Below are positions 2,948 through 58,601 of a DNA stretch of 64,000 bases, one piece after another (position 1 is the stretch's first letter; each line of letters begins with the position of its first letter). The DNA comes from Methylomonas koyamae (GTDB taxonomy: Bacteria; Pseudomonadota; Gammaproteobacteria; Methylococcales; Methylomonadaceae). The notes under the pieces were generated by a model that did no database searches, was not told where the DNA came from, and saw only the letters and a list, made by a program, of their open reading frames with translations. The stretch spans positions 4,092,001 through 4,156,000 of the forward strand of contig NZ_AP019777.1 in NCBI RefSeq assembly GCF_019669905.1, in the 5' to 3' direction. The position numbers and the translations under genes were made by a program.

Positions 2948-4288
2948 TTATTCCAGACCGAGTTTCTTCAACCGGTAACGCAACGAGCGGAAACTCATAC
3001 CCAAATATTTAGCCGTCGCGGTTTTATTCCAGCGGTTTTCCTCCAAAGCCGAACTCAGCGCTTTTTTCTCGATATCTTCCAGATAACTTTCCAGCGACAT
3101 TTTTTCGGCATCGAAATCTTCCGCCGCGGCCAAGTCCAAACCGGTCGGCAAATTCAAATCGTCGACCTCGATCACGCCGCCCTCGTGCAGCGCCAAAGCC
3201 CGCTCCAAAATATTTTCCAACTCGCGGACGTTGCCCGGAAAATAATACTGTTTCAGCGCATTCAACGCCGCATCCGACAGGCGCGGGATAGCAATGCCGT
3301 TGGCCCGCGCCAAACCTTGCAGCAGATGTTCGGTCAATTGCGGAATATCGGCGGCTCGCGCCCGTAATGGCGGCAGATTCAGTTCGATGACGTTGATCCG
3401 GTAATACAAGTCCTGCCGAAAACTGCCTTCCTGAACCATTTTTGCCAAATCCCTGTGGGTCGCGCTCAGCAAACGCACGTCCACCGGAATTTCGCGCTGC
3501 TCGCCGATCGGACGGATTTTCTTTTCCTGTATCGCCCGCAGTAATTTGACTTGCAAAGCCAACGGCAAATCGGCCACTTCGTCCAGAAACAGCGTGCCGC
3601 CGTCCGCGGCTTGAAACAAACCTTGCTTATCGCTGACCGCCCCGGTGAAGCTGCCTTTTTTGTGACCGAAAAATTCGCTTTCCATCAATTCGTGCGGAAT
3701 CGCGCCGCAATTGATGGCGATAAAAGCCTTTTCGCTGCGCGGGCTTTGCTGGTGAATCAGCCGCGCCACCAATTCCTTGCCGGAACCCGACTCGCCGCTG
3801 ATGTAAACCGGCGCCTGGTTGCGCGCCACTTTATCGATCTTGGAGCGGATATTGCGCATCGGCGCCGATTCCCCGAGCAACAAATCGCGGGTGCGGCGTT
3901 CCTTTTCGGCCACCCGGTTCAGCGAGATCTGCAAGGCATGGCTGACCAATTGCCTTAACACCGCCAGATCGACCGGCTTGGACAGAAAATCGAAAGCGCC
4001 TTTTTTCATGGCCTTGATCGCGATATCCATGCTGCCGTGGGCAGTGATCACCGCCACCGGCAGCGTCAAACCTTGGGCCTGGATGTAATCGACCAGTTCC
4101 AAGCCGTCTCCGTCCGGCAAGCGCATGTCGGTCAAACATAAATCGAAGGATTGATTAGCCAGACAATGCTTGGCTTCGGCGAGCGTAGCCGCGCTACGGG
4201 TCTGGATCTGCATCCGGTTTAACGTGATTTCCAACAGTTCCCGAATATCGGGCTCGTCGTCGACCACTAACGTAACAGGCATATTCAT
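2948..4288 (-). CDS. pilR: PilR-type sigma-54-dependent response regulator
   Basis: 446-residue NtrC-family regulator. Receiver domain at residues 5-120 with acidic pocket D10-D11 and phospho-acceptor D54. Central AAA+ domain with Walker A GESGSGKE, a GSFTGA loop (the sigma-54 contact motif, Ser replacing the first Ala), Walker B GTLFLDE and the arginine-finger region. C-terminal Fis-type helix-turn-helix (WNKTATAKYLGMSFRSLRYRLKKLGL). It is expected to activate type IV pilin (pilA) transcription with RpoN. Its start overlaps the end of pilS by 4 bases (ATGA), so the pair is translationally coupled. pilA itself is not in the window. Confidence 0.92.
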   Translation of the reverse strand: MNMPVTLVVDDEPDIRELLEITLNRMQIQTRSAATLAEAKHCLANQSFDLCLTDMRLPDGDGLELVDYIQAQGLTLPVAVITAHGSMDIAIKAMKKGAFDFLSKPVDLAVLRQLVSHALQISLNRVAEKERRTRDLLLGESAPMRNIRSKIDKVARNQAPVYISGESGSGKELVARLIHQQSPRSEKAFIAINCGAIPHELMESEFFGHKKGSFTGAVSDKQGLFQAADGGTLFLDEVADLPLALQVKLLRAIQEKKIRPIGEQREIPVDVRLLSATHRDLAKMVQEGSFRQDLYYRINVIELNLPPLRARAADIPQLTEHLLQGLARANGIAIPRLSDAALNALKQYYFPGNVRELENILERALALHEGGVIEVDDLNLPTGLDLAAAEDFDAEKMSLESYLEDIEKKALSSALEENRWNKTATAKYLGMSFRSLRYRLKKLGLE

Positions 4289-5907
4289 ATTTCAATCGCC
4301 GCCCGATCGGCATTCGCCAATAACAAGGTAAAACAGGATTTTTCGCCGGGGGCGTAATTCAACTCGGCCCGGTTCAATTCGGCCAATTCCTTGGAAATGT
4401 AAAGCCCCAACCCGGTCCCCTGGTGAGACGTGGTGAAAAACGGTTCGAACAGATGCTGTAGATTGTCGGCGCCGATACCGGGCCCGTTGTCTATCACGCT
4501 GATGTAAGGCGAGCCTTGCGCCATGCCCGCCTCGACCAGAATCGGCCCCGCTTCCGGCCGGCCGTACTTCAACGCATTGGCGCACAGATTGTCCAGAATC
4601 TGCTTCAAATGACCGGCGTCGATACAGGCAGCGAGTGCGTGGGTCTGAAACGACAGTTTGAACGTATCCTCCGCCAGCCCCAGATTGAGGCGTTGTTCGC
4701 TCAAGTAAGCCGGCAGCCACTGGTCGAGCACGATTTTTTGCTTCTGCGACGGCGCCCGCCGCGACAGCTTCAGAATGTCTTCGATGATACCATTCACCCG
4801 CTGGCAGTGAATCCGGATGATTTCGGTCAGGCGCAAATCCTGGGCATCCAGCGCCCGCGATTCCGCCAACAATTGGCCGGCATGGCTGATCGCTGCCAGC
4901 GGGTTGCGGATTTCGTGGGCGATACTGGCCGTCAACCGGCCCAAGGAGGCTAATTTGCTTTGTTGCAAGCGCTGATTGTACAAGGCGATGTCTTCGAAAA
5001 TCATCATGTTCAAAGTTTCTTCTTCCACGGCCAACGCCGAGAACTGAACTTGAATTTCGCTACGGTCGGGCAAAGATACGATGGCAAAATCCTGCTCGCG
5101 GCGTTCGCGCCACATCTCGAACGCTTGCTGCAATTGCGGCGAGATTTCGGCCAATGCCTGCGGCTGCCGTTCCAGCCCCAACAAGCGCAATGCCGATTGG
5201 TTGGACAATTGGGTGGCCTGGCGGTCGTCGACGATCATGATGCCGGATTGCAAATGCTGAATGATGTAGCGGTTCAGGCTTTCCAGGCGGGCGATGGTCT
5301 GCTCGTGGCGTTGCGCCAGAATCGCGGCCTGCTCGGCGCGTTGCGCCAGGATCACCGACAGAAAGGCAATCGAAAAAAAAGCCACGCCGAGCATGCCGGC
5401 ATAGGTCAGCGTCGTGGTTTCGAAGGCGCGGGTCTGGATTGCATAAAGCTCCTCGGCCAAAATCGCCAGGCTGGCCAAGGCGGCAAACAAGATCGCGCAA
5501 CGGCCGCCGACCAACAGTCCGCCGGCCGCTATCGATATCGCCAATAAGATGCCGATGCCGCTGCCGACGCCGCCACTGGCGTGCATCATCAACGTGACCA
5601 ACACAATATCGGTAAAGATGAAAATCTGAGCCAATCTGGCGTAACCCAGCCGTTGGCGAAATGCGATCGGCCCGGCAATCAACGAAATCGCCAAATAGGC
5701 CGCACTGGCGAACTGGTACAATGCCGCGTCGTAGGCGCCGAGCAAGGACGGGCCGAAACGCAAATAAAACAGCATCGAGAACAGGCTGGCCGTGACGAAA
5801 CGGTACAGGGCAAAGATTTTCAGCATCAGCCAAGCCTGCCGACTGGGAATACCGTAACCTTTGGAAAAGGGACAGGGGTATAAAGTGTCGGCCGCAGGGG
5901 TTCGCAT
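4285..5907 (-). CDS. pilS: PilS-type membrane sensor histidine kinase
   Basis: About 540 residues. Six hydrophobic segments lie in the first 190 residues (typical of PilS), followed by a PAS-like region, a HisKA box with the phospho-accepting histidine in SIAHEIRNPLAA, and an HATPase domain with N box DNLCANALKYG, G1 DNGPGIG and G2 GTGLGLYI. It is the cognate kinase of PilR, and in Pseudomonas it senses pilin in the membrane. Start choice: the frame stays open to a TTG at 5952, but similarity to PilS begins only shortly before the first membrane helix, so the ATG at 5907 is preferred. It is divergent from sucC. Confidence 0.9.
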   Translation of the reverse strand: MRTPAADTLYPCPFSKGYGIPSRQAWLMLKIFALYRFVTASLFSMLFYLRFGPSLLGAYDAALYQFASAAYLAISLIAGPIAFRQRLGYARLAQIFIFTDIVLVTLMMHASGGVGSGIGILLAISIAAGGLLVGGRCAILFAALASLAILAEELYAIQTRAFETTTLTYAGMLGVAFFSIAFLSVILAQRAEQAAILAQRHEQTIARLESLNRYIIQHLQSGIMIVDDRQATQLSNQSALRLLGLERQPQALAEISPQLQQAFEMWRERREQDFAIVSLPDRSEIQVQFSALAVEEETLNMMIFEDIALYNQRLQQSKLASLGRLTASIAHEIRNPLAAISHAGQLLAESRALDAQDLRLTEIIRIHCQRVNGIIEDILKLSRRAPSQKQKIVLDQWLPAYLSEQRLNLGLAEDTFKLSFQTHALAACIDAGHLKQILDNLCANALKYGRPEAGPILVEAGMAQGSPYISVIDNGPGIGADNLQHLFEPFFTTSHQGTGLGLYISKELAELNRAELNYAPGEKSCFTLLLANADRAAIEI

Positions 5908-6005
5908 TGCCCGTCGTTTTTTCAGGAGTTGTTTAAAATTAGTGTCCGGCAATCATAGCACCAACTTGGAACGCCGCGATGTCCGCCTCAACATGGAGCA
6001 CCTAG

Positions 6006-9701: not shown

Positions 9702-10826
9702 ATGTCAACACTGCGTACCGTTTTAATCTCTACCGCCCTGCTGCTGACGGCGGAGAACGGTCTAGCCCGCGAAATCAACATTCCCGTGCCGATGGAATAC
9801 CGCTTTATCAGAAGCGTTCTGGTCAATCAGCTCTACACCGGCCCCGACGAATCGGTACGGGCCTGGAAAGACGGCAAACAATGCAGCTATCTGGATTTGG
9901 ACCATCCGCAAATCAGCGGCGAAAACGGCCAAGTCAAAATCCAGAACAACGTCCAGGCCCGCATCGGCACGGCATTGGGCGGCAAATGCATGGCGCTGGT
10001 GGAATGGTCGGGTATCCTGCAGACCTTTCAGCAACCCACCCTGGACGCTTCGGGCAACGTGCTGAGTTTTCCGGTTACCCAGCTCAACGCGTTCGACCGC
10101 AACGGCCAGCCGCTGAATATCAGCCAATTGCAATCCTTGATCAAAAAAGCCGCCGAACCGAAACTGTCCGGCTTAAAAATCGATTTGAACCAAGTCCGGC
10201 CGGACATCGCCAAAGCGCTGGTACCTTATATAGCCGCCGAGCATAGCGAAGAGTTGCACGATACGATCAACAGCTTGCGCTTCAACCAAGCCAAGGCCGA
10301 CGCCAACGGCTTACAAATCAACCTGGGCTACACGGCCGACAACCCGAATCCGAACGACGTCAAGCCGGCCGCGGTTCTCAACGAAGCCGAGTTGAAGCAG
10401 TGGCGCGGGCTCTGGCAAAACTGGCAAGCGTCTCTGGATAAATCGATAGCCACGGCGCAGTTGGGCAGCAATGCCGAGGATACCCGCGCCAAATTGCATG
10501 AAGTCCTGCAAAAAGCCGGCAGCGCCTTCGAGCAAGGCCTGAGCAGCGAATCGGTCGCCGAGAACGACCCGGTCCGTAAATTTTTCAACAGCTCGTGGGA
10601 TACTTTCGCACCGTTGCTACGCGACGCCTCCAGCCAATTGCCGGGCGGCGAAAAGTTGCGCTACGTGACGCTGATTGCCGCGACCGATCTGATGTACGAA
10701 TTGGAATCCATCGGCTCGCCGTTGGGTCTGGAAGTCTCCTCCAACGGTTTACGCAAACTGGCCCGCTCCTTGATCGCCCAGCAAACGCTGAAAGGCAAAG
10801 CCAAAAAAGCCAAACGCAAAGGCTAG
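9702..10826 (+). CDS. Secreted protein of unknown function
   Basis: 374 residues counted from the ATG at 9702, which has a clear ribosome site (TAAGGAGT) and lies 4 bases after the nadE stop. The frame stays open further upstream but that part overlaps nadE. An N-terminal signal peptide (LISTALLLTAENGLA) is followed by a mature region rich in Gln and Asn. It has a central helical part (about 180-330) and a strongly basic tail made of Lys, Ala and Gly (KGKAKKAKRKG). No catalytic motif or repeat is seen and the family is not recognised. Its place in the sucCD-nadE transcript gives no functional hint. Confidence 0.8.
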   Translation: MSTLRTVLISTALLLTAENGLAREINIPVPMEYRFIRSVLVNQLYTGPDESVRAWKDGKQCSYLDLDHPQISGENGQVKIQNNVQARIGTALGGKCMALVEWSGILQTFQQPTLDASGNVLSFPVTQLNAFDRNGQPLNISQLQSLIKKAAEPKLSGLKIDLNQVRPDIAKALVPYIAAEHSEELHDTINSLRFNQAKADANGLQINLGYTADNPNPNDVKPAAVLNEAELKQWRGLWQNWQASLDKSIATAQLGSNAEDTRAKLHEVLQKAGSAFEQGLSSESVAENDPVRKFFNSSWDTFAPLLRDASSQLPGGEKLRYVTLIAATDLMYELESIGSPLGLEVSSNGLRKLARSLIAQQTLKGKAKKAKRKG

Positions 10827-10848
10827 CCCGCCCTCCGCTTCGACCCAC

Positions 10849-10878
10849 CCCGGATTACTCGACGCACGGTGATCCGGG
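10849..10878. repeat. REP-like palindrome
   Basis: Perfect 7-bp arms CCCGGAT / ATCCGGG around a 16-base centre, 22 bases after a stop codon. The shape resembles short extragenic palindromes (CGGATTAC...ATCCGGG) common in bacterial genomes, and it may also act as a transcript end. No second copy is seen in the window. Confidence 0.4.
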
Positions 10879-11068
10879 CTCATCCTGCCTGACCGCGTAA
10901 TCCCCCAGCAACAGACCCACGTTATTAACCTGTTTTTTTCAACAGGAATTTACGTTAAGCTTGCCCGCCAGTTAGACGGAACGCGAGTATCCTAAACCGA
11001 CAGGGCCAGAATCGCCGGTACCCGGACCGGCGCCTTCCGGCGCTCGATAAACCTATAGCGAGCGAAAC

Positions 11069-13150
11069 ATGCCAGACCACCTGTTCGACATGCACCCATA
11101 CATGCCTCACGGCCAATGTTATTTGTGGCAGAACGATCTGCTATTGCTGCATGTGGTGTCCGACACATTGATCGTGTTGTCCTATTACTCGATCCCGTTC
11201 GCGCTGGTCTACATCCTGAAAAAACGCCAGGATATTCCGTTTAGCTGGATTTATTGGCTGTTCGGCCTGTTCATCTTCCTGTGCGGCACCACCCACTTGC
11301 TCAGCATCTGGAATGTCTGGGTGCCCGATTACTGGCTGTCCGGATTCGTCAAACTGGCCACGGCCATAAGTTCGATTACGACGGCGGCACTGGTTTGGCC
11401 CTTGGTGCCGAAAATCCTGGCCATACCGAGCCAAGCCCAATTGGTCGCGGCCAACTCGGCCCTGGCCAGAGAAATCGAAAACCATAAGAGAACGGAACAG
11501 GAGCTGCGCAAATTAACGCTGGCGATGCAATACAGCTCGAGCATGGTCATCGTCACCGACGCCCAAACCCGTATCGAATATTGCAACCCGGCCTTCTTCC
11601 AGATTACCGGTTACTCGGCGGACGAAGTGTTAGGCCAACGAGCCAACCTGCTCAAATCCGACCTGACCGCCGACGAGACTTACAAAGGCCTGTGGGCCAC
11701 CTTATTGAGCGGCTCCGCCTGGCACGGCGAATTTTTGAACCGCAAAAAAAACGGCGAATTATTTTGGTGCCTGGAATCGATCGCGCCCATCCTCGACGAG
11801 AGCAATTCGATCAGCCATTTCGTCTCCATCATCCACGACATCAGCGACCGTAAGGATACCGAAGAAATCATCCGCCACATGGCGTACTACGATCCGTTGA
11901 CCGACCTGGCCAACCGCTCTCTATTCAACGAGCGGCTGGAACAAGCCATCCACCAAGCCAAGCGCAATCCACAAATTTTTGCGCTGTTCTATCTGGATCT
12001 GGACCGTTTCAAAAACATCAACGATACGCTGGGGCACTTGGTCGGCGACAAATTGCTGATCGAGGTCGGCAGACGCATTTCGGCCTGCCTGCGCGAACAA
12101 GAAACCGTGGCCCGGCTCGGCGGCGACGAATTCGCGCTGATCGGCCTGAATTTGACCAGCCCGGCCGACGCCGGCGAGATTGCCCAGCGCGTGATCAACA
12201 CCGTCAACGAACCGTTTTTCATCGACGACCACCAGTTGTTCGTCAGCACCAGCCTCGGCATCAGCGTCTACCCGCAGGACGCGACGACCAGCGAACAACT
12301 GTTGAAACACGCCGACGACGCGTTGTATCTGGCGAAACAACACGGCCGCAACACCTTCGAGTTTTACAATGCCTCGGCCAACGCCCAATCCTTGCGCCGA
12401 TTAAACATCGAAAACCATTTGCGCCATGGCCTGGCCCGCAACGAATTCTCGCTGGCCTACCAGCCGCAAGTCGATTTGGCCAGCGGCCGGATTATCGGTG
12501 CCGAAGCGCTGTTGCGCTGGATGCCGGCCATCGGCCCGATCGGTCCGGACGAATTCATCCCGATCGCCGAGAACAGCGGCTTGATCGTCGAAATCGGCGA
12601 ATGGGTCATGCGCACGGCTTGCCGCGACTTTATGGCGGCGCCGTTGCACGAGCGGAAGCTGTTGCTGGCGATCAACCTGTCGGCGCGCCAGTTCAAGAAA
12701 ACCACGCTGGTCGACAGCGTGCGCGGCATCTTGGCGGAAACCGGCTTTCCGGCCGAGCGGCTGGAGCTGGAAATTACCGAAAGCATGCTGGTCGAGCACT
12801 TCGAGAAGACCGTCAAACAAATGCAGGAACTGAAAAACCTGGGCATTCGCCTGGCGATCGACGATTTCGGCACCGGTTTTTCCTCGCTCAGCTATTTGAA
12901 ACGGTTTCCGATGGACACGCTGAAAATCGACAAATCCTTCGTTGCCGATATCTACGACAACCAGAACGATGCCTGTATCGTGCGTTCCATCATCGGCCTG
13001 GGCCACGGCCTGAACCTGAAAGTCCAGGCCGAAGGCGTGGAAACCGCGCAGCAACTGGAGCTATTGCAGCTGCACCAATGCGACCGCGGCCAGGGCTATT
13101 TCTTCCACAAACCGCTGCCGATAGACGAGTTTCGCCGGCTGTTCGTCTAG
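11069..13150 (+). CDS. Ethylene-receptor-type N-terminus fused to PAS-GGDEF-EAL
   Basis: 693-residue membrane protein. Residues 20-115 form three transmembrane helices matching the ethylene-binding domain of plant ETR1 and cyanobacterial homologues. The copper/ethylene residues align without gaps at a constant offset of 7: D32, Y39 (YYSIP), I69, C72 and H76 (LCGTTH) correspond to ETR1 D25, Y32, I62, C65 and H69. A PAS domain follows (about 155-265), then a GGDEF domain with intact GGDEF (351-355) and an EAL domain with intact EAL (479-481), INLS, EITES, DDFG, LKID and AEGVET. Both output domains look catalytically competent. Inferred role: a membrane sensor of ethylene or another copper-bound small ligand that sets c-di-GMP level. 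It is monocistronic with a 242-base leader region. Confidence 0.88.
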   Translation: MPDHLFDMHPYMPHGQCYLWQNDLLLLHVVSDTLIVLSYYSIPFALVYILKKRQDIPFSWIYWLFGLFIFLCGTTHLLSIWNVWVPDYWLSGFVKLATAISSITTAALVWPLVPKILAIPSQAQLVAANSALAREIENHKRTEQELRKLTLAMQYSSSMVIVTDAQTRIEYCNPAFFQITGYSADEVLGQRANLLKSDLTADETYKGLWATLLSGSAWHGEFLNRKKNGELFWCLESIAPILDESNSISHFVSIIHDISDRKDTEEIIRHMAYYDPLTDLANRSLFNERLEQAIHQAKRNPQIFALFYLDLDRFKNINDTLGHLVGDKLLIEVGRRISACLREQETVARLGGDEFALIGLNLTSPADAGEIAQRVINTVNEPFFIDDHQLFVSTSLGISVYPQDATTSEQLLKHADDALYLAKQHGRNTFEFYNASANAQSLRRLNIENHLRHGLARNEFSLAYQPQVDLASGRIIGAEALLRWMPAIGPIGPDEFIPIAENSGLIVEIGEWVMRTACRDFMAAPLHERKLLLAINLSARQFKKTTLVDSVRGILAETGFPAERLELEITESMLVEHFEKTVKQMQELKNLGIRLAIDDFGTGFSSLSYLKRFPMDTLKIDKSFVADIYDNQNDACIVRSIIGLGHGLNLKVQAEGVETAQQLELLQLHQCDRGQGYFFHKPLPIDEFRRLFV

Positions 13151-13187
13151 CATTGCGCTCCGTGGCGAACAGCCGGCAACCGGCGCT

Positions 13188-16100
13188 TTATGCGGTGACG
13201 CAGCGGTAAGGCCCTAGCGGATCGGCGCCCAGGGTACCGACCAGAGATTCCAGATAGGCCGGTCCGGACAGTTCCTGCAGTTTGCGTTGCGCCCGCTGCA
13301 AACGCTCGGCCAGTTTCAATTCGCCGACCACGGCCTGATGGCTGTTGTCGCGCAAAAACGCCTCCAGATAGCCGACGTGGCGTTGCCACAGCGCCAGCTC
13401 GCGTTGCTGTTTGATTTCCAGCCTCTCGCGGTACCAATCCGCGGCCAACAAATAGTCGCGGGTAAACATCGCCCGAATTTCGGGATGGTGCGCGTCCTTG
13501 CCCTGATAATGGCCGATCGCCATGATGTGCAGCAGCGCATACAACGGCGGGCAGGCGTCTTCGATGCTGCCGTCGTCCAGATATTGCTGCGCCACGCGCT
13601 GCTGGGTTTCGACGATATTGTTGACGCCGTCGACGAACACCTCCAGATTTTGCCGTTCCGGTTGCAGAATCTCGTCGGTGAACACCGCGTAGGGGTTGTC
13701 GAAGATCTTGCCCATCAGGCTATGCACGAAGTGGCTGGTGATACGGTAGCCGAGCCGGCTAGCCATGACCAGTTGGCCTTTGTGTTCGAAATCGGTCAGC
13801 GGCTCCAGATAACCGTGTTGCAACAGGTAATCGGCCTCGCGCTCCCGGCGCGACAAGCGCGCCCAGATTTCCGGAATCAACAGGCTGATGTCGTGGTCGA
13901 CCCGGGTGTCGGGGCCGATATGGCCGGCGGAGCTGGAAAAGCCGGGATAGCCGGTCAGAATGTAGGACACCAGCGTGTTGTTCAGGTCGGTGATGCCGCG
14001 CAAGGCGTTGAACGGACCTTTGGTCAGCGCGCCCTCGCTGCCGGCGCCGGTCGTCGACGGCGATTTGCCGGTCAGCGAACTGATGAAGTCCATGAACAGC
14101 TCCGGCAACTCCTGGTAATGAATCGGGTTGTACACCGCCAACGGCCGGATGCCGGGTTCCGGCGGGTTATTGCGCCGGCCGGTCAGCACCGCATCCACCG
14201 GATGGCACAAGGGCTGGTTCAGCGGGATTTTCCGGTGCAGGCGGGCGCCGACTTCGGCGACGTATTTGCGCAGCGGTTTGACCACATCGACCCGGGTTTC
14301 CAGATAGCGCGGATTTTTCGACGGTTTGCCGTTCACCAACCGCGGATGCGCCGAAGAAACGACAAAGCCCTTGCCGTCGCGGTAAGCTTCGCTCAACAGG
14401 CTTTGCATCGGCGGGGTAAATTTGGAAAAAGTCATGACGTCTTCCACCACGGCCGCCAGCTTTTCGCGGTCCAACGGTTCGAAATTGGCCATGAAGTTGC
14501 CGGGACCGGACATGTTCAGCTCGGTCTGTTTATCGTATCCGGGAATGATCGCATCGTCCGGGCGCTGGAACAGCCGGTACTCGCAGTTGGTGACCAGCTT
14601 CAAGCTCATCTGGTAGCCGTCGTCCGGCAGCCAGGGCAGCACCGCCGCGGTCGGCACCACCACAGAGGCACTGATGTCGTCTTCCATCTGCACTTTCTCG
14701 CAGGCGATGTAGTCCTGGCGTACTTTAAAGGTGCGCCAGCCGCCTTCGGCGTCGAAGCCGACCCGCAAATAGGTGGCGACGATCTTGCGTTGGTTCAGTT
14801 TCAGCTCGTGGCCCGGCGCACCGTCGATCACATCCACCGACAAATGGTCGCGCCAGTGTTCGCCCCACTCCTCCCGGTAAAAACGTTTGATCAGGAACAC
14901 CAAAGCCAGAATGCTGGGCGGGATCGACTTCAGCCAGTTGTTGAACTCCGGCGTATGGTAACTGGACGGCGTCAATAACTTGATGACCGAGCCCAAGCTG
15001 CGCTCCGGACTCAGAATCTTGCGGGCCGGATCGCGGTCTTCGTACTCGTAGCCCGGCAGGAAGCGGCCGGTGTAATCCTTGTCGAAAATCGCCTGCACCC
15101 GGTCCAGATCGTGTTGCAAATCGTCGACGAACAGCGGCCCGTAAATCACCGCATCCTCGATGGATTTGGAAATTTCCGACTTGCCGCCGCCCGAAACCGT
15201 ACACGGTTTGTGGCAGAACGTGCCTTCCGCGACGGTACCGATCAAGCGCCAGGACGGTGCACCGGGGTGCTTGCACATTTCGATCTTGTAGCCGTTGGGC
15301 TGCACGTAAATCTTGCCGGGTTGCAAGCGGATACTGTGGCTCTGGCCGTTTCTGATCCAGGTGATTTTCTGGTTGTTCAAGCTCATCCGCAGATCTTGCG
15401 GCACATAGATGATGTCCGGGTATTGCTTGTCCACCGCATAGCCTTCCGGCTGCATGTCCATGATCGCGCCGTAGCGGTAAACCATGTCGTCGAAATCGTA
15501 GCCCGGCTCGCGGGTCAGGCTGCCGATGCCGAATTCGTCGCCGTGGTTGAAGCGGCGGAAGGCCAGCGCGCCGCCGGCATGCTCTTCCTCGGCCAGGCCG
15601 AACAGGTTGGCAGCATAGCTGATCTGGGTTTTCACTTCCTTTTTGCAATAGCCGTAATAATTGTCGGCCAACAGCGTGACGATGACGCCGGAGCGGTCGC
15701 GGGCAGTCAATTTAAAGGCCTGGCCGTCGTTATACAGCTCGGCCGGGTCCTGCCAGCACATGCCCTCCGCGCGCTGGCGCTCGCTGGCATCGGTCCAGTG
15801 CGGCAAGCCCAATTGTTTCTTGGTCAGTTTGACCAGATGCGGCGCCAGAATCACGCAGCCGCTGTGGCCGGACCAATGTTCGACGTCCAGTGCCGCATCG
15901 CATTCCGGCAAGGCCGGATTGCCGCCGTTACCGAAAATGCTCTCGACGAAATCCAGGTTGCTGACCAGATTTCCAGGGGCGAAAAAGCGGATTTCCATCG
16001 ACTTCTCGGCGGCGACGCCGGGAATTTCCGGACAAACCACCGGACGCAGCAACAACGAGGCGAACATGTGCGCCGGCTGCGGTTGATTGGCGGTGAAGGG

Positions 16101-16664
16101 TAGCGTCAGCAAGTCTTGCGGCGGATTCAAGGCCTCGGCCAGCATCAAGGCAAAGGTTAGCTGCGGCACCTGCTTTTTGTCGCCGGGCACCGGCAAGCCG
16201 CCTTCGGCAATGTGGAAAGAGCCTTGAGTGGTGCGGCGGTCGCTGGCCGGATTATGCAAAACCCCTTGTTTGACGCGGAAACTGGATACGATTTCGGAGC
16301 GGAATTCGTCTTCGCCCATCGGCAACGAGAGCTCGCGGGCCACGCCGTGCCGGTCCAATTCAAAGGTCATGGTCGGCAGCGACGGCACTTTTTCGAGACC
16401 AAGATCGCCGCAATAGCGATCAAGGAAATCCTGAATCCGGCGGTCGGCGGGGTACAACGAGGAGCTGGCCAATTGCCGGCTTTTCTCCAGATAACTGTTC
16501 AATAAATCCTGAGCGGTATCCATGAACTGGGCCGAGGCCTGATCGATACAGGTCGGTTGGCCGCAGGACGCCAATTTCAAATTGATATACAAATGCAATT
16601 GCCGCTTGACCGCTTGCTCGTCTTGACCCGCAGGTCCCAGACCCAACGCTCTGAGTTTATCCAT
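13188..16664 (-). CDS. Giant conserved enzyme-like protein, candidate PPi-type PEP carboxykinase
   Basis: 1158 residues with no signal peptide or membrane segment and a strong ribosome site (AAGGGGGAGG). An unusual phosphate-loop-like motif TVSGGGKSEISKS lies near residues 490-500 (K495). Other conserved-looking blocks are YCKKEVKTQISYAANL, EEEHAGGALAFRRFNHGDEF and ITDLNNTLVSYILTGYPG. The size (about 130 kDa) and the P-loop-like block are compatible with the pyrophosphate-dependent PEP carboxykinases described in Entamoeba and Propionibacterium, which convert PEP, CO2 and phosphate to oxaloacetate and PPi. That identification is from memory of the family and is tentative. The gene is monocistronic. 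Confidence 0.55.
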   Translation of the reverse strand: MDKLRALGLGPAGQDEQAVKRQLHLYINLKLASCGQPTCIDQASAQFMDTAQDLLNSYLEKSRQLASSSLYPADRRIQDFLDRYCGDLGLEKVPSLPTMTFELDRHGVARELSLPMGEDEFRSEIVSSFRVKQGVLHNPASDRRTTQGSFHIAEGGLPVPGDKKQVPQLTFALMLAEALNPPQDLLTLPFTANQPQPAHMFASLLLRPVVCPEIPGVAAEKSMEIRFFAPGNLVSNLDFVESIFGNGGNPALPECDAALDVEHWSGHSGCVILAPHLVKLTKKQLGLPHWTDASERQRAEGMCWQDPAELYNDGQAFKLTARDRSGVIVTLLADNYYGYCKKEVKTQISYAANLFGLAEEEHAGGALAFRRFNHGDEFGIGSLTREPGYDFDDMVYRYGAIMDMQPEGYAVDKQYPDIIYVPQDLRMSLNNQKITWIRNGQSHSIRLQPGKIYVQPNGYKIEMCKHPGAPSWRLIGTVAEGTFCHKPCTVSGGGKSEISKSIEDAVIYGPLFVDDLQHDLDRVQAIFDKDYTGRFLPGYEYEDRDPARKILSPERSLGSVIKLLTPSSYHTPEFNNWLKSIPPSILALVFLIKRFYREEWGEHWRDHLSVDVIDGAPGHELKLNQRKIVATYLRVGFDAEGGWRTFKVRQDYIACEKVQMEDDISASVVVPTAAVLPWLPDDGYQMSLKLVTNCEYRLFQRPDDAIIPGYDKQTELNMSGPGNFMANFEPLDREKLAAVVEDVMTFSKFTPPMQSLLSEAYRDGKGFVVSSAHPRLVNGKPSKNPRYLETRVDVVKPLRKYVAEVGARLHRKIPLNQPLCHPVDAVLTGRRNNPPEPGIRPLAVYNPIHYQELPELFMDFISSLTGKSPSTTGAGSEGALTKGPFNALRGITDLNNTLVSYILTGYPGFSSSAGHIGPDTRVDHDISLLIPEIWARLSRREREADYLLQHGYLEPLTDFEHKGQLVMASRLGYRITSHFVHSLMGKIFDNPYAVFTDEILQPERQNLEVFVDGVNNIVETQQRVAQQYLDDGSIEDACPPLYALLHIMAIGHYQGKDAHHPEIRAMFTRDYLLAADWYRERLEIKQQRELALWQRHVGYLEAFLRDNSHQAVVGELKLAERLQRAQRKLQELSGPAYLESLVGTLGADPLGPYRCVTA

Positions 16665-16982: not shown

Positions 16983-17498
16983 TTGTCCGCTGCCGCCATT
17001 CCCGCCGATCAGATTGCCGCGCTGTTTCGCGACCATAAGGAAGCGATCGTGCATTTTCTGTTACAGCGCGTCAAATGCCCCGACACGGCACAAGACTTGA
17101 GCCAGGAAACCTATTTGCGCCTGTTGCGTAAAGACGGGCTGGCTCATACCGACAATCTGAGCGGTTACCTGTTCCGCACCGCAGAGCGGCTGGCGATCGA
17201 TTTCGTCCGCCAGCGCCAGCGCCTCAGCGCGCGACTGGAAGCCTTGCCGGACGACGCCCCCTGCCCTTTGCCGCAGCCGGAATATGCCGCAATCGTCAAC
17301 CAACGCTACCGGCGCTTGCTGGACGCGATCGCCGCGTTGCCGGCCCAATGCCGGCATATCTTGTTGCTGCGCAAAATCGACGAACTCGGTTACCGGGAAA
17401 TTGCCGAGCAACTCGGTATTTCCGAAAAAACCGTGCAACGCCAATTGGTCAAAGCGATGTTGCATTGCCACGAATATTGCCGCGATACCCCGCCATAG
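16983..17498 (+). CDS. FecI-like ECF sigma factor
   Basis: 171 residues. Sigma-70 region 2 at residues 10-80 (DTAQDLSQETYLRLL, LFRTAERLAIDFVRQRQR) and region 4 at 105-160 with helix-turn-helix YREIAEQLGISEKTVQRQLVKAM. The start is a TTG at 16983 preceded by CCGGAG; no ATG occurs before the conserved region. It is followed by fecR and a TonB-dependent receptor, the standard cell-surface signalling arrangement in which a loaded receptor releases the sigma factor through FecR to switch on its own uptake genes. Probably under iron control, but no Fur box could be assigned. Confidence 0.88.
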   Translation: MSAAAIPADQIAALFRDHKEAIVHFLLQRVKCPDTAQDLSQETYLRLLRKDGLAHTDNLSGYLFRTAERLAIDFVRQRQRLSARLEALPDDAPCPLPQPEYAAIVNQRYRRLLDAIAALPAQCRHILLLRKIDELGYREIAEQLGISEKTVQRQLVKAMLHCHEYCRDTPP

Positions 17499-17589
17499 TC
17501 TTGGCCGTCGCGGGGTACCGCCCCATCCCGCGCCCGAATCGGGTAAACTCGCACCGGCTATTTGTCCAAGACCCGTCTGAAATCTCCGG

Positions 17590-18543
17590 ATGACCGCTAC
17601 CACTCCCGCCCAGCACCACCTAAAACAAGCCACGACCTGGTTCGTAGCGTTACAGTCCAGTTGCGTCGATCCCGAACAGCGCCGGCAATTCGAGCGATGG
17701 CTGGCGGCAAGCCCGCTGCATCGCCAAGCGTTTAGCGAAGTCGAACAATTCTGGGGCAATCTGGACGCGCTGAAATCGGCCGATTTGCCGGAGCTGGAGC
17801 ACGCTCGCGCCGCCCGGCCGCCGCGCTGGCGCCAGGGCCGGCCGCTGTTGTCCGGGTTATTGCTCGCAGCAACCCTTGCCGCGGCCTGGCAGGAACTATC
17901 GGCTCCGGCCGCCAGCTACCAGACCGGAATCGGCGAACGCCGCGAAATCGCGTTGGCGGACGGTTCCCGCTTGCAATTGAACACCGCCACCCGCTTACGC
18001 ACCCGCGTCACCTGGTTGCGCCGCGAAATCGAACTGGAACAGGGCGAAGCCCTATTCGACGTGGCGCACGAGCGCTGGCGCCCGTTTCGGGTCCATGCCG
18101 GCAAAGTGCACATTAGCGACATCGGCACGCGGTTTAACGTACGCCACCAGGACTCAGGCGGAACCTCGGTTTCGGTATTAGAAGGCGAAGTGGAACTGCG
18201 CGTCGGCCGCAGTTGGCTGGGAGAAGTATTGAGCGCCGGTTTCCGCCGCCGCCTCGACGCCGAAGGCCGCTGGCATTCACCGGAAAAAATCGACGCCGAG
18301 CCGGTGTTGGCCTGGACCCGCGGCCAGTTGGTGTTCAACCACACGCCGCTGGCCGACGTGACCAAAGAATTGGAGCGTTACCATAATCTCCATTTCGTGC
18401 TCGCCGATAGCTCGCTCGGCCAACAAACCCTGAGCGGACGTTTCGACGCCGGCGATCTGCAGCCGTTTTTACAAGCACTGCAAACGATGTTGCCGGTGCG
18501 GGTACAGCGCGGTAAAGACACGGTTGTGTTGCATAAACGCTGA
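17590..18543 (+). CDS. FecR-family anti-sigma / sigma regulator
   Basis: 317 residues. N-terminal cytoplasmic domain of the DUF4880 type (QCRQF-like segment VDPEQRRQFERWLAASPLHRQAF), a single membrane helix at about residues 87-103 ([15 protein letters not shown]), then the periplasmic FecR domain (GERREIALADGSRLQLNTATRLR, HISDIGTRFNVR) and a C-terminal STN-like portion (VTKELERYHNLHFVL, LSGRFDAG). It would carry the signal from the receptor STN domain to the sigma factor across the inner membrane. It lies 91 bases downstream of the sigma gene. Confidence 0.9.
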   Translation: MTATTPAQHHLKQATTWFVALQSSCVDPEQRRQFERWLAASPLHRQAFSEVEQFWGNLDALKSADLPELEHARAARPPRWRQGRPLLSGLLLAATLAAAWQELSAPAASYQTGIGERREIALADGSRLQLNTATRLRTRVTWLRREIELEQGEALFDVAHERWRPFRVHAGKVHISDIGTRFNVRHQDSGGTSVSVLEGEVELRVGRSWLGEVLSAGFRRRLDAEGRWHSPEKIDAEPVLAWTRGQLVFNHTPLADVTKELERYHNLHFVLADSSLGQQTLSGRFDAGDLQPFLQALQTMLPVRVQRGKDTVVLHKR

Positions 18544-18573
18544 CACAGCCTCCTCAGCCCATTTTCCGCCCCG

Positions 18574-18590
18574 CCGAAAATTATTTTCGG
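18574..18590. promoter_or_regulatory. Palindrome upstream of the TonB-dependent receptor
   Basis: Perfect 7-bp inverted repeat CCGAAAA-TTA-TTTTCGG in the 136-base gap between fecR and the receptor gene, about 90 bases before the receptor ATG. It could be an operator near a sigma-dependent promoter or a small attenuating hairpin. No direct evidence separates these. Confidence 0.4.
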
Positions 18591-18679
18591 TGCCGCTGTC
18601 CAGTTTCGTTGCCTTGCTTCGTTTATGACAGGTATCGCCAGCAAAGGCCTGGCCTACCTTCATTACACAGGAGACGACA

Positions 18680-21043
18680 ATGAGCCGATCAACCAATCCA
18701 CCTTACCGGCAGCGCAACCGCGGCCGCACCGTTGCGCCGGTGCTGGCTTTATCTTTGGCAGTCGCCGGCAATAGCTGGGCCGGCCCAGCCGCATCGAGCC
18801 AACTCGATCTGCCGGCGCAAAGCCTGGCTGCCAGCCTGGACAGCTTGGCGAAAACCAGCGGCGCCAAGTTGATTTATGCCGATTCGCTGGTCAAAGGCCT
18901 CCAGGCCGAGGCGCTGCACGGCGAATTTACCGTGCAGCAGGCGCTGGAGCAGTTGTTGCACAAGCACGGGCTGCAATCGGAAAACGTCGGCGACGGCGTT
19001 ATCACAATCAAGAAAGCGCCACCGGCACCGAAGCCGCAAGCGGTCCGCGACGACTCGATCATCTCGCTCGGCGAAGTTACGGTCAGCGACCAACAGGAAA
19101 ACGGCAAACTGACCAGCAAAGACATCGCCACGTCGGTGGATATCATGTACGCCGATAAAATCGCCGACCAAAACGTCCTGACTGCATTCGACTTGATGCA
19201 TCGCATGCCGGGCGTGCAGATTACCCAATTCGGACAAGGCACCACCACCGGCAAATTTTCGTTCCGCGGCTTCAATGGCGAGGGCCGCACCAACGCGGTG
19301 AAACTGTTGATCGACGGCATTCCCAGCAACTCCAACGACGGCAACATGCCTTATTTGGATGCCTTGTTTCCGCTGGATATCGAATCGATCGAAGTGGTAC
19401 GGGGCACCAACGATCCGCGTTACGGCCTGCATAACATTGCCGGTAACGTAAATATGACCACCTCCACTGGCGGCAATTACGTCAAAGGCCGGATGAGTTA
19501 CGGCAGTTTCGACACCCACGAGATCCAATCGGGCTTGGGCTACGAAAAAGACGGCTTTTCGCAGAACTATCAGATTTCGTACCGAGCCAGCGATGGCTAT
19601 CGCGACCGCAGCGATTCCGACAAGAACAGCTTCTCCGGCAAATGGTTCTATGCGCCGAGCGACAAATATAAAGCCGGCTTGATCGCCCGTTGGAGCGAGG
19701 CCGGCGCCCAAGAGCCGGGTTACCTGACCTATCAGCAGCAACTTGCCAGCACGACGCAAGCCACACCGCACGACCCGCTGGATTACAGCAAGCGCACCGT
19801 GGGCCAGATCAGCGCCCATCTCGACGTCAACTTAAGCGAAACCTTGTTCTGGTCGAACAAGGCTTACGGCAATATTTTCGATGACCAACGCTTGGTACAG
19901 TTTCACCCGGCGTTTTCCCAGGTCAAACGCGACCGGGACGAAGTACAGTACGGTGCCATCACATCGCTGACCTACCACCCGCAAGTCAGTTGGCTGGACG
20001 ATTTCTCGATCGAAACCGGCTTCGACTTTCAACAGCAAGAAAACAAGTACAAGCAATACCGAACCACCAACGGCATAGCCAACCCCAGCAGCGCCGCCAA
20101 TATCCGTAACGACGAGCATTGGACCTTTATGAATTACGGCGGTTACATCCAAGCCGTGATCAAGCCGACAAGATGGTTGAAATTGACGCCCGGCTATCGT
20201 GCCGACGTGATCGACGGCGATTTTTTCAGCTACCGTCCCGGCGCCACCTATGGCTCCTACCCGATCAACGATTACGGGACCATCTCGCAACCCAAAATTG
20301 GCGCGGTGATCACCCCTATCGAAGGCTACAGCCTCTACGGTAACTGGGGCCGGACTTTCCAAGTAGGCCTTGGACAAGCCACTTTTGTCGGGCGAAACCA
20401 ATCAAATACCGGCCCTTCTCTGAACGACGGCTGGGAAATCGGCGTGAAATTATCTCCGGTCGCGTGGGCGGAAGGCCGGGTGGCCTATTGGATGCAAGAT
20501 GCCAGCAATGAAATCAGCCGCAATCTGGCCAGTACCGATTCCACCATGATTGGCCCCACCAAGCGGCAAGGCGTGGACATCGAACTCAAAGTGTATCCGA
20601 CCGACCGCTTCGGCGTCTGGGCGGCTTACTCCCTGCAGGAGGCCAAGATCACCAATCCGCCGGCGGTGGTCGCCAACGCCATGGAATACACCGCGGGCAA
20701 CCAAGTCGTGAATACGCCCAATTACCTGTTTTCCGCCGGTATCGACTATCAAATTACCCAACAACTGCGTTCGTCGTTATGGACCAGCGGCCAAGGCAAC
20801 TACTTCGTCGATCAAGCCAACGACGCCGGCAAACACGGCGAATACGCGCTGTTGAATTTGGACTTGGGTTACCAGGTAACCAAACAAGTGGAACTGCAAT
20901 TCCAGGCGAAAAACCTGACCGATACCCAGCGCGAATACTTGTGGTACGACGAAAGCTACGGCGCCGGCCAGCGGTATGCCTTTTATTCTCCCGGCGACGG
21001 TCGCGCCTTTTACGGCGCCGTCAGCGTCAAGTTCGACTACTAA
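18680..21043 (+). CDS. TonB-dependent siderophore receptor with STN signalling domain
   Basis: 787 residues. Signal peptide ending near SWA-GPA (residues 20-36), an STN domain at about 40-112 (LPAQSLAASLDSLAKTSGAKL, LHGEFTVQQALEQLLHKHGL), a plug at about 130-260 (MHRMPGVQITQFG, IESIEVVRGTNDPRYG) and a 22-strand barrel ending in aromatic FDY. The STN domain identifies it as a transducing receptor that talks to the FecR protein upstream. The substrate is unknown, presumably a ferric siderophore. The ribosome site AGGAGA precedes the ATG. The PepSY gene follows after 3 bases. Confidence 0.9.
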   Translation: MSRSTNPPYRQRNRGRTVAPVLALSLAVAGNSWAGPAASSQLDLPAQSLAASLDSLAKTSGAKLIYADSLVKGLQAEALHGEFTVQQALEQLLHKHGLQSENVGDGVITIKKAPPAPKPQAVRDDSIISLGEVTVSDQQENGKLTSKDIATSVDIMYADKIADQNVLTAFDLMHRMPGVQITQFGQGTTTGKFSFRGFNGEGRTNAVKLLIDGIPSNSNDGNMPYLDALFPLDIESIEVVRGTNDPRYGLHNIAGNVNMTTSTGGNYVKGRMSYGSFDTHEIQSGLGYEKDGFSQNYQISYRASDGYRDRSDSDKNSFSGKWFYAPSDKYKAGLIARWSEAGAQEPGYLTYQQQLASTTQATPHDPLDYSKRTVGQISAHLDVNLSETLFWSNKAYGNIFDDQRLVQFHPAFSQVKRDRDEVQYGAITSLTYHPQVSWLDDFSIETGFDFQQQENKYKQYRTTNGIANPSSAANIRNDEHWTFMNYGGYIQAVIKPTRWLKLTPGYRADVIDGDFFSYRPGATYGSYPINDYGTISQPKIGAVITPIEGYSLYGNWGRTFQVGLGQATFVGRNQSNTGPSLNDGWEIGVKLSPVAWAEGRVAYWMQDASNEISRNLASTDSTMIGPTKRQGVDIELKVYPTDRFGVWAAYSLQEAKITNPPAVVANAMEYTAGNQVVNTPNYLFSAGIDYQITQQLRSSLWTSGQGNYFVDQANDAGKHGEYALLNLDLGYQVTKQVELQFQAKNLTDTQREYLWYDESYGAGQRYAFYSPGDGRAFYGAVSVKFDY

Positions 21044-21046
21044 AAC

Positions 21047-22213
21047 ATGGCTTCGCCTGCGTTAAAAGCCAACAAGAAACAGACCGCCCGCCGGCTTTGG
21101 TTGGCGGTCCATCTTTACTTGGGGCTGAGCTTGGGTTTGGTCATTGCCGTCGTCGGCCTGACCGGCAGCCTGTTGGTGTTCTATCTCGATCTCGACGAAT
21201 GGCTGAATCCGCAATTGGTCATCGCCCAGCCCGGCGCACAGCGGCAAAGCTACGAAGCCCTGTACCAAGCTTTACGCCAGGCGGAACCAAGCCGGCAACG
21301 CGGCTGGCGGCTGGAAATTTCTGAAAACCCGCGCCGCGCAGTTACCGCCCGCTATTACAAGCCGGAGGAAACCGTCCACCACGGCTTTGCGCCGTTGATG
21401 GTTTCTCTCGACCCTTACACCGGCAAAGTGCTGGCGAACCGCTTTTGGGGCGAGTTTGCGATGACTTGGCTGTACGATCTGCATTACAAACTGCTGCTGG
21501 ACGACCCCGGCAAAATTCTGATGGCGATTGTCGGCGGCATTTTGCTGATTTCGCTGATCTCCGGCCTCTACCTGTGGTGGCCGCCGTTAAGCAAACTAAA
21601 AACTGCGCTGACGGTTAAGGCCAACGCCAGCAAGGAACGGCGGAATTACGACCTGCATAAATTGGCGGGCTTTTACGCTTTCATCGTGATGCTGGTTGTG
21701 GCGCTGACCGGCGTTGCCCTGGAAATCCCGCAATACGTCAATCCGCTGTTCGGCTATCTTTCGCCGCTACAAGCCATGCCCAAACCGCAATCCTCACCAT
21801 CAGCGCCCGGACAACAACGGATTAGCCTCGATCAAGCCGTCGCTGCCGGCCAGTCGGTTTTTCCCGACGCCCGCTTGTGCTGGATCGAAACCCCGCACGA
21901 CGCCGGCGGCAGTTTCCGCATCAATCTGCGCCAAGACGGCGAGCCTAGCCAACGCTTCCCGAAAACCAATGTCTGGGTGGACCAATACAGCGGCCGGATA
22001 CTGGCGGTCAGCGATCCCGCCGATCTCGGCGGTTCGGACACGCTGATCAACTGGCTGCATCCTTTGCATACCGGCGAGGCCTTCGGATTGATCGGGCAAT
22101 GGCTGGTGTTGATATCCGGATTGGCCTGCCCGCTGCTGTTCGTTACCGGCGTGATTCGCTGGCTGCAAAAACGCCAAGCCCGTCACAAATTCAAACTGCG
22201 CAGCAACGCCTGA
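21047..22213 (+). CDS. PepSY-associated transmembrane protein (siderophore iron reductase type)
   Basis: 388 residues with about four membrane helices: LYLGLSLGLVIAVVGLTGSLLVFYL near the N-terminus, AIVGGILLISLISGLYLWW, FYAFIVMLVVALTGVAL, and WLVLISGLACPLLFVTGVI near the C-terminus. A periplasmic PepSY segment (ISLDQAVAAGQSVFPDARL ... VWVDQYSGRIL) lies between the last two. Such proteins beside siderophore receptors, for example FpvG, take part in reductive iron release in the periplasm. It is coupled to the receptor gene by a 3-base gap. Confidence 0.87.
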   Translation: MASPALKANKKQTARRLWLAVHLYLGLSLGLVIAVVGLTGSLLVFYLDLDEWLNPQLVIAQPGAQRQSYEALYQALRQAEPSRQRGWRLEISENPRRAVTARYYKPEETVHHGFAPLMVSLDPYTGKVLANRFWGEFAMTWLYDLHYKLLLDDPGKILMAIVGGILLISLISGLYLWWPPLSKLKTALTVKANASKERRNYDLHKLAGFYAFIVMLVVALTGVALEIPQYVNPLFGYLSPLQAMPKPQSSPSAPGQQRISLDQAVAAGQSVFPDARLCWIETPHDAGGSFRINLRQDGEPSQRFPKTNVWVDQYSGRILAVSDPADLGGSDTLINWLHPLHTGEAFGLIGQWLVLISGLACPLLFVTGVIRWLQKRQARHKFKLRSNA

Positions 22214-32426: not shown

Positions 32427-33206
32427 TTAGGCTTTCTGTTTTCGAATCTCGACCCGCTCCAAAGACGTGATGAAATACGACAGCTTGGACTGGCTTCTCG
32501 CCGACAGGCCTTCGAAGAAACCGCCGATTTGCACCTTGGGAGAGGTTGCCGAAACCGGTTTGACGAAGCGCACGGCAAAATCGAAATCCATCACGTAATC
32601 GTCGAAATTGATTTGGCAATTCTTGATTACGTCGCCGCGCTGTACCCGGGCTCTATTGACCGGCACAATAACTCCGGCGCCGCCCCTGGACAGATCGAAC
32701 AGATAACCGCCAATCGATATCCCTGTGCGTTGCACGACACCGCTGAACGGTATGTCGATGGCACTGATTTCCAGCCGCGGCGAGCGCCGGCGCTGCGGAT
32801 AAAATACCCGATCCGGCAGCGGCGCCTTGTAGTAATTGATGCCTCTGGAATGGCCAATCTCGATGTCCGTCAAATTAAAAGACAAGTGGATGCCTTTATG
32901 AAAGGTCGATAACTTCAAGGCCCGCGAGCGAAGCAACAAGTCGTTGCCGTGTTTGGGCATCAACTCGTCCAGGATGATGCTGTTTTTGTCCAATTTGATG
33001 CTCAAGATGGACGAGCTGAAATCTTCGGCGAAACCTTCGACTTGAATGCTGCATAACGGTGAGCTGTTCTCGATTTCTCCGAGCAGCCGGGCGATTTTGT
33101 CCGGGTCGGTGATGAAATTCGGATTTTCGAACGCCAATAAATCGTCTTCGGCTTCAGGCGCCGATACGTTCGCTTTGGAAAAAAAATGCTTCAGCTTGCT
33201 CAGCAT
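32427..33206 (-). CDS. ycgR: YcgR-type PilZ flagellar brake protein
   Basis: 259 residues. N-terminal YcgR domain (about 30-140), then a PilZ domain with both c-di-GMP contacts: the RxxxR region RRRSPRLEIS and DLSRGGAG (D/NxSxxG). Such proteins bind c-di-GMP and slow flagellar rotation by acting on the stator or switch. It is downstream of flgM-flgN on the same strand, which supports a flagellar role. Two GGDEF-EAL proteins elsewhere in the window could feed it. Confidence 0.87.
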   Translation of the reverse strand: MLSKLKHFFSKANVSAPEAEDDLLAFENPNFITDPDKIARLLGEIENSSPLCSIQVEGFAEDFSSSILSIKLDKNSIILDELMPKHGNDLLLRSRALKLSTFHKGIHLSFNLTDIEIGHSRGINYYKAPLPDRVFYPQRRRSPRLEISAIDIPFSGVVQRTGISIGGYLFDLSRGGAGVIVPVNRARVQRGDVIKNCQINFDDYVMDFDFAVRFVKPVSATSPKVQIGGFFEGLSARSQSKLSYFITSLERVEIRKQKA

Positions 33207-57998: not shown

Positions 57999-58601
57999 AT
58001 GGCGCCGATCACGCAATTGTCGCAACTGGACCCCGAAGGCACTTATAGCTACGCCGATTATCTGACCTGGCAGCTCGAGGAATCGGTCGAGCTGATCCGG
58101 GGTAAAATCATGGCGATGTCGCCGGCACCAAACCGCAAACATCAGAGTGTCTCCGGCAATCTATTTCTTCATTTAGGAAACCATTTCAAACGCAAAAGTT
58201 GCCAAGTGTTTGTAGCACCCTTCGACGTCAAACTCTATGACCGCCGAAAATCCTTGCTTCAGGATCGTGAAGTTTTCAGCGTCGTGCAGCCGGATTTATG
58301 CGTTATCTGCGACAAGGAGAAGTTAACAGAACAAGGTTGCGACGGCGCGCCGGACTGGATTATCGAGATTTTGTCGCCGAGCAACAGCCGCAAGGAAGTG
58401 CGCCTGAAGTACGAACTGTATCAAGAATGTGGCGTCGGTGAATATTGGTTGGTATTCCCTTACGAACAAATCGTGCAGCAATTTGTGCTCGACGATGGCG
58501 GCAAATACCAGCTGCGCGCTTTGTATCCCGGCAACGAAACCGCCGCCCCGCACTTATTCCCCGACCTGCAAATCGATTTGAACGACGTTTTTGCCGAATA
58601 G
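57999..58601 (+). CDS. Uma2 family putative nuclease inserted in the gat operon
   Basis: 200 residues of the Uma2 (DUF820) family with PD-(D/E)xK-like residues: Glu in ESVELIRGKIMAMSPAP, Asp in VQPDLCVI, and PDWIIEILSPSNSRKEVRLKYELYQECGVGEYWLV with E and K. It lies 13 bases after gatA and 18 bases before gatB, all on the same strand, so it must be co-transcribed with them. These proteins are abundant in cyanobacteria and sporadic elsewhere, and the biological substrate is unknown. Confidence 0.87.
   Translation: MAPITQLSQLDPEGTYSYADYLTWQLEESVELIRGKIMAMSPAPNRKHQSVSGNLFLHLGNHFKRKSCQVFVAPFDVKLYDRRKSLLQDREVFSVVQPDLCVICDKEKLTEQGCDGAPDWIIEILSPSNSRKEVRLKYELYQECGVGEYWLVFPYEQIVQQFVLDDGGKYQLRALYPGNETAAPHLFPDLQIDLNDVFAE

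Follow-up and report, generated by a model that had tools for sequence, protein, structure and literature searches.

An ethylene-binding domain of the plant receptor type fused to PAS, GGDEF and EAL domains in the methanotroph Methylomonas koyamae

We analysed a stretch of 64,000 nucleotides of the Methylomonas koyamae genome (the window), in which a single open reading frame encodes an ethylene-binding domain (EBD) followed by PAS, GGDEF and EAL domains. The gene and its features are as follows:

11069..13150, + strand: EBD-PAS-GGDEF-EAL open reading frame, 693 aa, ATG start
11117..11119, + strand: C17, candidate dimer disulphide cysteine (alignment of the order; role by analogy to plant receptors)
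11138..11425, + strand: EBD, Pfam ETR1_N (PF25487), aa 24-119, E=8.2e-39
11162..11164, + strand: D32 (ETR1 D25), binding residue by homology, co-varies with K95 (residue alignment)
11273..11296, + strand: I69, C72 and H76 (ETR1 I62, C65 and H69), predicted copper/ethylene site in helix 2 (residue alignment)
11351..11353, + strand: K95 (ETR1 K91, AzoEtr1 K98), helix 3 partner of D32 (alignment)
11432..11530, + strand: predicted continuous signalling helix, aa 122-154, from the membrane domain to PAS (AlphaFold2 model)
11543..11848, + strand: PAS domain (PAS_9, aa 159-260), Pfam E=2.9e-20
11882..12352, + strand: GGDEF domain, aa 272-428, motif GGDEF at aa 351-355, Pfam E=1e-51
12413..13114, + strand: EAL domain, aa 449-682, Pfam E=1e-70

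The ETR1_N match reached 132 bits against a cut-off of 27 and covered profile positions 2-97 of 97. An earlier note on this DNA had proposed an ETR1-type EBD at the N-terminus, and this significant profile match bears it out. With the PAS region, which spans about aa 154-262 in Pfam, and the GGDEF and EAL matches, the EBD-PAS-GGDEF-EAL architecture is confirmed far beyond chance. Sequence databases already contain proteins of this architecture, listed for example as 'EAL domain-containing protein'. Pfam gave no match to HisKA or HATPase in the 693-aa protein, in which GGDEF and EAL stand in the kinase's place. Because of this output we file it as an EBD protein and not as a canonical ethylene-receptor kinase. 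A promoter scan of 10700-13300 revealed no sigma-70-like site, and terminators were no more frequent than in shuffled sequences.

All seven ETR1 binding residues were found in the EBD (D32, Y39, I42, P43, I69, C72 and H76). Five of them, D32, Y39, I69, C72 and H76, lie at a constant offset of 7 from the ETR1 positions, as the earlier note had stated, and I42 and P43 can now be added. This comparison rests on the Pfam ETR1_N profile and a residue list; the residues that Wang et al. reportedly gave in 2006 are D25, Y32, I35, P36, I62, C65 and H69. PMC11819568, of which we cite excerpts here and below, confirms D25, C65 and H69 and describes seven residues as needed for ethylene binding. In the AlphaFold2 model (20 sequences, mean pLDDT 85.4, pTM 0.54), three membrane helices are predicted at aa 22-52, 59-84 and 88-117, and the hydropathy profile shows three peaks; the 33-residue helix 122-154 follows, and then PAS, GGDEF and EAL. 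Among the 127 aligned EBD rows of the host's order, the copper-ligand Cys and His were present in all and a Cys at the C17 position in 126. The dimer cysteines of plant receptors (excerpt of PMC6682694) offer an analogue for the role of C17. A sequence search for solved structures gave no relative for the EBD: the 11 matches at E<=1, all with E>=0.0057, were to antibodies and designed proteins.

The best solved relative was 4rnh (E=1.2e-122), one of the 'Motility regulator' structures 4rnh/4rnf, and in all 60 listed of 195 solved relatives the best-matching stretch lay outside the EBD. Within NCBIfam, DibA was the best match at 620 bits, which does not reach the DibA cut-off of 980 bits; DosP is likewise a GGDEF-EAL enzyme, like the output half of the window protein. 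The intact catalytic signatures that had been noticed in the letters were recovered here by Pfam matches and residue alignment. The GGDEF metal/GTP residues are intact, with D310, N318 and D319 invariant in 20/20 aligned proteins. At the I-site, which is inhibitory and not required for the cyclase, the protein reads REQE and not RxxD; RxxD occurs in 48 of the 64 GGDEF members of the order. The EAL catalytic and metal residues E479, N536, E568, D598, D599, K619, E655 and Q675 are present (8/8), at positions assigned from what is known of the family.

Across the order, the GGDEF motif (GGDEF or GGEEF) was kept in 63 of 64 members, the remaining one being unaligned, and the eight EAL residues were kept in 55 of 59 GGDEF-EAL members. 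Three of the other four (L145, L146 and L148) carry substitutions and one is cut off by a contig end. In these three and in P0004, all M. methanica-like orthologues, the EAL catalytic Lys and Glu are replaced and GGDEF is kept (for P0004 the substitution was read from the alignment); their phosphodiesterase half looks decayed, judging from these residues. GGDEF-only EBD proteins occur, and no EAL-only protein was found among 163 EBD ORFs. The sequence pattern favours the cyclase as the more constrained output, which does not by itself fix the direction of the response; since both halves are intact in the window protein, its net direction is not readable. We consider it probable that the 693-aa protein is a Cu(I)-dependent ethylene sensor controlling c-di-GMP turnover.

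Just over half of the genomes of the host's order have an ETR1_N match (156/301; 152 over the cut-off). A class sample of 369 genomes yielded 16 with a match (12 over the cut-off, three of these from the host's order) and a phylum sample of 398 genomes yielded 29 (28 over the cut-off, one being the own genome); these two samples overlap in some genomes. The copper monooxygenase family PF02461 matched in 237 of the 301 genomes of the order. EBDs are not universal in the order, because the 24 PF02461 genomes of families f2, f3, f6, f7 and f8 had none (0/24).

The outputs of these proteins were called with home-made profiles. The inside-order set held 124 EBD places, mostly the best-scoring among the matches listed; counting the own two, it gave 127 ORFs, of which one is a cut-off copy of its neighbour, leaving 126 distinct. 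The outside-order set held 36 EBD places (every match over the cut-off in the class and phylum samples save a 26-position fragment in G914; five sub-cut-off matches were excluded). The 126 mostly high-scoring proteins of the order comprised 59 with GGDEF-EAL, five with GGDEF, 58 with a histidine kinase and four with no output seen; the GGDEF-only call is doubtful for L120, which has an undetermined residue at the EAL start, and for L182, which is unaligned over the GGDEF motif. A GGDEF or GGDEF-EAL end thus occurred in 64/126 inside the order compared to 0/36 elsewhere in the phylum, a share that may be too high for the order because the top of the score list is rich in GGDEF-EAL. Outside, 29 proteins ended in a histidine kinase and seven had no recognised output, two of which look like HWE-type kinases by eye. 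Fisher's test on the 127/36 table gave p = 8e-10, a value that ignores kinship and the choice of places. This distribution pattern of EBD fusions across the host's order is what is new here.

We also examined 80 named loci, the best of 438 when ranked by similarity to an alignment headed by the window EBD. GGDEF(-EAL) outputs were found in 19/19 Methylococcales, in 5/38 Cyanobacteriota, all of them Nostocales, and in none of the other 23. The closest EBDs in this set were those of Methylomonas sp. SURF-1 (99% over the EBD) and then M. koyamae (92%), from which the host's order is taken to be Methylococcales. The statement that known bacterial members feed histidine kinases holds for the characterised ones but not in general, as fusions to c-di-GMP enzymes are frequent in methanotrophs and are found in Nostocales as well. 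A fusion unique to methanotrophs is rejected, since Nostocales carry separate ones, and c-di-GMP is not the sole EBD output of the order, given that 58/126 end in a histidine kinase. The fusion is not missing outside the order for want of EAL domains, because the 34 EBD genomes there hold a median of 12 (0-44). Abundance of EAL genes alone is not favoured as the cause of fusion, with 0/36 EBD proteins fused at that median and a fusion present in G003, which has 11 EAL domains. Five of seven order genomes counted have 30-47 EAL domains, and such abundance may help fusions to arise.

A quick search over few columns (122) gave a tree of 121 EBDs in which 62 of the 118 inner branches are open. The c-di-GMP label, found on 28 of its rows, has to change 11 times, and well-supported branches force at least four of these changes. 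With nine long-branch rows left out, the hypothesis that all c-di-GMP members form a single clade was rejected (p-AU 0.00013), and so was that of a single clade of the methanotroph c-di-GMP members alone (p-AU 0.00017), so the fusion arose, or outputs were swapped, several times. The only Nostocales c-di-GMP fusion kept in the tree sits within the cyanobacterial clade (98*) and is therefore separate; the Nostoc EBD-PAS-GGDEF-EAL proteins have the same kinds of domain in the same order as the window protein, but by a fusion of their own. The relatives thus appear to have evolved EBD-c-di-GMP fusions several times.

PAS-GGDEF-EAL is a very common architecture, and as many as four PAS domains occur in many relatives. 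One might therefore regard the EBD as a mere membrane anchor or dimer holder, with PAS doing the sensing in an otherwise ordinary PAS-GGDEF-EAL enzyme. We find this very unlikely, as among the four domains the EBD shows the highest conservation in 9 of 11 orthologue rows (several rows are near-copies of each other), and its Cys and His are invariant in the order. In the L172 orthologue, for instance, identity is 85% for EBD, 75% for PAS, 76% for GGDEF and 59% for EAL; in the L181_8 and P0002 orthologues GGDEF is above EBD (94 vs 91%). Moreover, the P0098 fusion has no recognised PAS at all. Within an ethylene sensor, PAS could still carry a second or even the main signal.

The D32-K95 pair was Asp-Lys in 117 of the 127 rows of the order. 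Seven rows have Asn in the first position, all with Asp or Glu at the Lys position (7/7), and the remaining three read His-Leu, Glu-Lys and Asp-Arg. The seven Asn-Asp or Asn-Glu proteins (L113, L219, L225, L228, L229, L234 and L236) are all EBD-GGDEF-EAL, and those kept in the tree group together, which points to one or few events. A bond between D25 and K91 has been described (PMC11819568), and exchange of the key Asp for Asn lowers receptor affinity about 100-fold according to an excerpt of PMC13012798; not every EBD need therefore bind ethylene tightly, as these seven carry that Asn. The swap is a natural co-variation that is predicted to alter affinity. This subfamily would also suit a different natural ligand, such as propylene, acetylene, isoprene or CO, for which ethylene would be a surrogate. 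Plant ethylene receptors respond to analogues, and methanotrophs encounter other alkenes. For the window protein such a ligand is quite improbable, as its pair is Asp-Lys, the ethylene type, and none of the seven residues is missing.

Searching plasmids with aa 1-130 returned 19 records, seven of them from Azospirillum. The match in A. brasilense Sp 7 (L317) encodes 525 aa and has a receiver gene overlapping its 3' end. Both features fit the description of AzoEtr1 in PMC11819568, and by strain, length and overlapping downstream receiver gene we identify L317, an unannotated record that shows no locus tag, as AzoEtr1. The two EBDs are 53% identical over 125 aa, and AzoEtr1 D35, C75, H79 and K98 align with D32, C72, H76 and K95. 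Residues 1-130 of AzoEtr1 show saturable 14C-ethylene binding, and ethylene reduces biofilm in A. brasilense (PMC11819568). Together with the 53% identity, this binding is our strongest reason to expect ethylene binding by the window EBD. Both proteins come from proteobacterial hosts and have an N-terminal EBD followed by PAS; in AzoEtr1 a histidine kinase follows and the receiver is a separate protein, whereas the window protein has GGDEF-EAL in the same chain. SynEtr1/UirS (Slr1212) of Synechocystis, compared by description, is also a bacterial EBD receptor and has been linked to motility (excerpt of PMC5812497) and biofilm (PMC11819568), but it has a light-sensing domain and a histidine kinase output. 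Plant ETR1 shares the ETR1_N domain and the seven residues (by profile and residue list) and differs in its histidine kinase and receiver and its place in the plant endomembrane. In the open-access literature no functional study of an EBD-GGDEF or EBD-EAL protein was found, and specialist reviews (Papon and Binder 2019) may show the architecture.

The host was suspected to be a methanotroph, and it is indeed a Methylomonas whose 5.1-Mb genome has two matches to PF02461. The soluble monooxygenase profile PF02332 gave no match in this genome, and likewise none in its control. With copper monooxygenase genes in the host, and with C72 and H76 being copper ligands by homology and Cys and His in 127/127 rows, the EBD might instead report copper supply through its Cu(I) occupancy and tie c-di-GMP to the copper status needed by particulate methane monooxygenase. 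This is unlikely, since D32, Y39, I42, P43 and I69, which are not metal ligands, are kept too, and in the closest bacterial relative to have been tested ethylene is bound and elicits a response (PMC11819568). Furthermore, none of the 34 EBD genomes outside the order gave a PF02461 match (0/34), although the control genomes also gave none.

Returning to ethylene, the protein would act as a one-component membrane receptor, with Cu(I) held by the three membrane helices via C72 and H76 and ethylene, or a closely similar small alkene, binding at this site. In a dimer, the signal would travel from the EBD along helix 122-154 and through PAS to the two enzyme domains, GGDEF and EAL, with a change in c-di-GMP as the result. 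By analogy with the plant, Synechocystis and Azospirillum receptors, the empty receptor would be active and ethylene would reduce its activity. As GGDEF is the more conserved enzyme half, we tentatively expect ethylene to lower c-di-GMP, at somewhat less than even chances. The genome holds 50 EAL and 70 GGDEF domains over the cut-off, and the effect of this one gene may thus be local or small.

Ethylene is toxic to methanotrophs, whose methane monooxygenase converts it to toxic epoxyethane (excerpt of PMC11507031); it would thus be plausible for these bacteria to couple an ethylene sensor to c-di-GMP, and the presence of ethylene would shift the cell between motile and attached states. As a point against this reading, the same paper, in whose text the word 'receptor' is absent, attributes epoxide detoxification in another methanotroph to a MEDS-domain regulator. 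More broadly, gammaproteobacterial methanotrophs may possess a copper-dependent ethylene-to-c-di-GMP pathway, with membrane EBDs wired directly to c-di-GMP enzymes several times independently; ethylene would be a co-substrate that their own monooxygenase makes poisonous, and cells could use the pathway either to remain in wetland or root niches rich in ethylene or to move away from them, and the Asn-Asp/Glu subfamily might be tuned to another affinity or ligand; we hold the chances of this wider picture to be close to even, though slightly below. If true, a receptor of the plant-hormone type would work in bacteria via a second messenger and not a phosphorelay, and ethylene released by plants and waterlogged soil may alter the behaviour of bacteria that remove methane. 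The natural variants, with intact or decayed EAL and Asp-Lys or Asn-acid pairs, would allow ligand binding to be separated from output.

A second EBD protein of this genome lies outside the window (G000:C1:1750134-1751909, - strand; L002 91-1866). It has 591 aa and, by our home-made profiles, the order EBD-histidine kinase-receiver. Tyr replaces the Ile equivalent to ETR1 I35, and the other six residues and the Lys are kept.

The EBD-PAS-GGDEF-EAL gene stands alone. Of six Methylomonas loci compared, four keep this arrangement and two have a different EBD gene instead, and no operon partner was seen; conservation of the locus within Methylomonas says nothing of function. A PilZ flagellar brake in the window had been taken as adding interest to a c-di-GMP link. 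The YcgR-type PilZN-PilZ gene is real (32427-33206, - strand) and lies beside FlgN, with FlgD and CheR nearby, but it is 19 kb away and carries no evidential weight; with so many EAL and GGDEF domains spread over the genome, its nearness was rejected as support. Convergent with the EBD gene, 13188-16664 (- strand) encodes a 1158-aa protein without a Pfam or PHROGs match, which is 84-98% identical over about four fifths of its length in four Methylomonas loci. Next but one to the EBD gene, 16983-22213 (+ strand) encodes an ECF sigma factor, FecR, a TonB-dependent receptor with an STN domain and a PepSY membrane protein, and looks like a metal-chelate uptake cluster. Elsewhere in the window we observed a further GGDEF-EAL protein (440-2275, + strand), a PilS-like kinase with a sigma-54 response regulator (2948-5952, - strand), a Uma2-like protein (57999-58601, + strand) and a HEPN/AbiU2-like protein (62089-62664, - strand).
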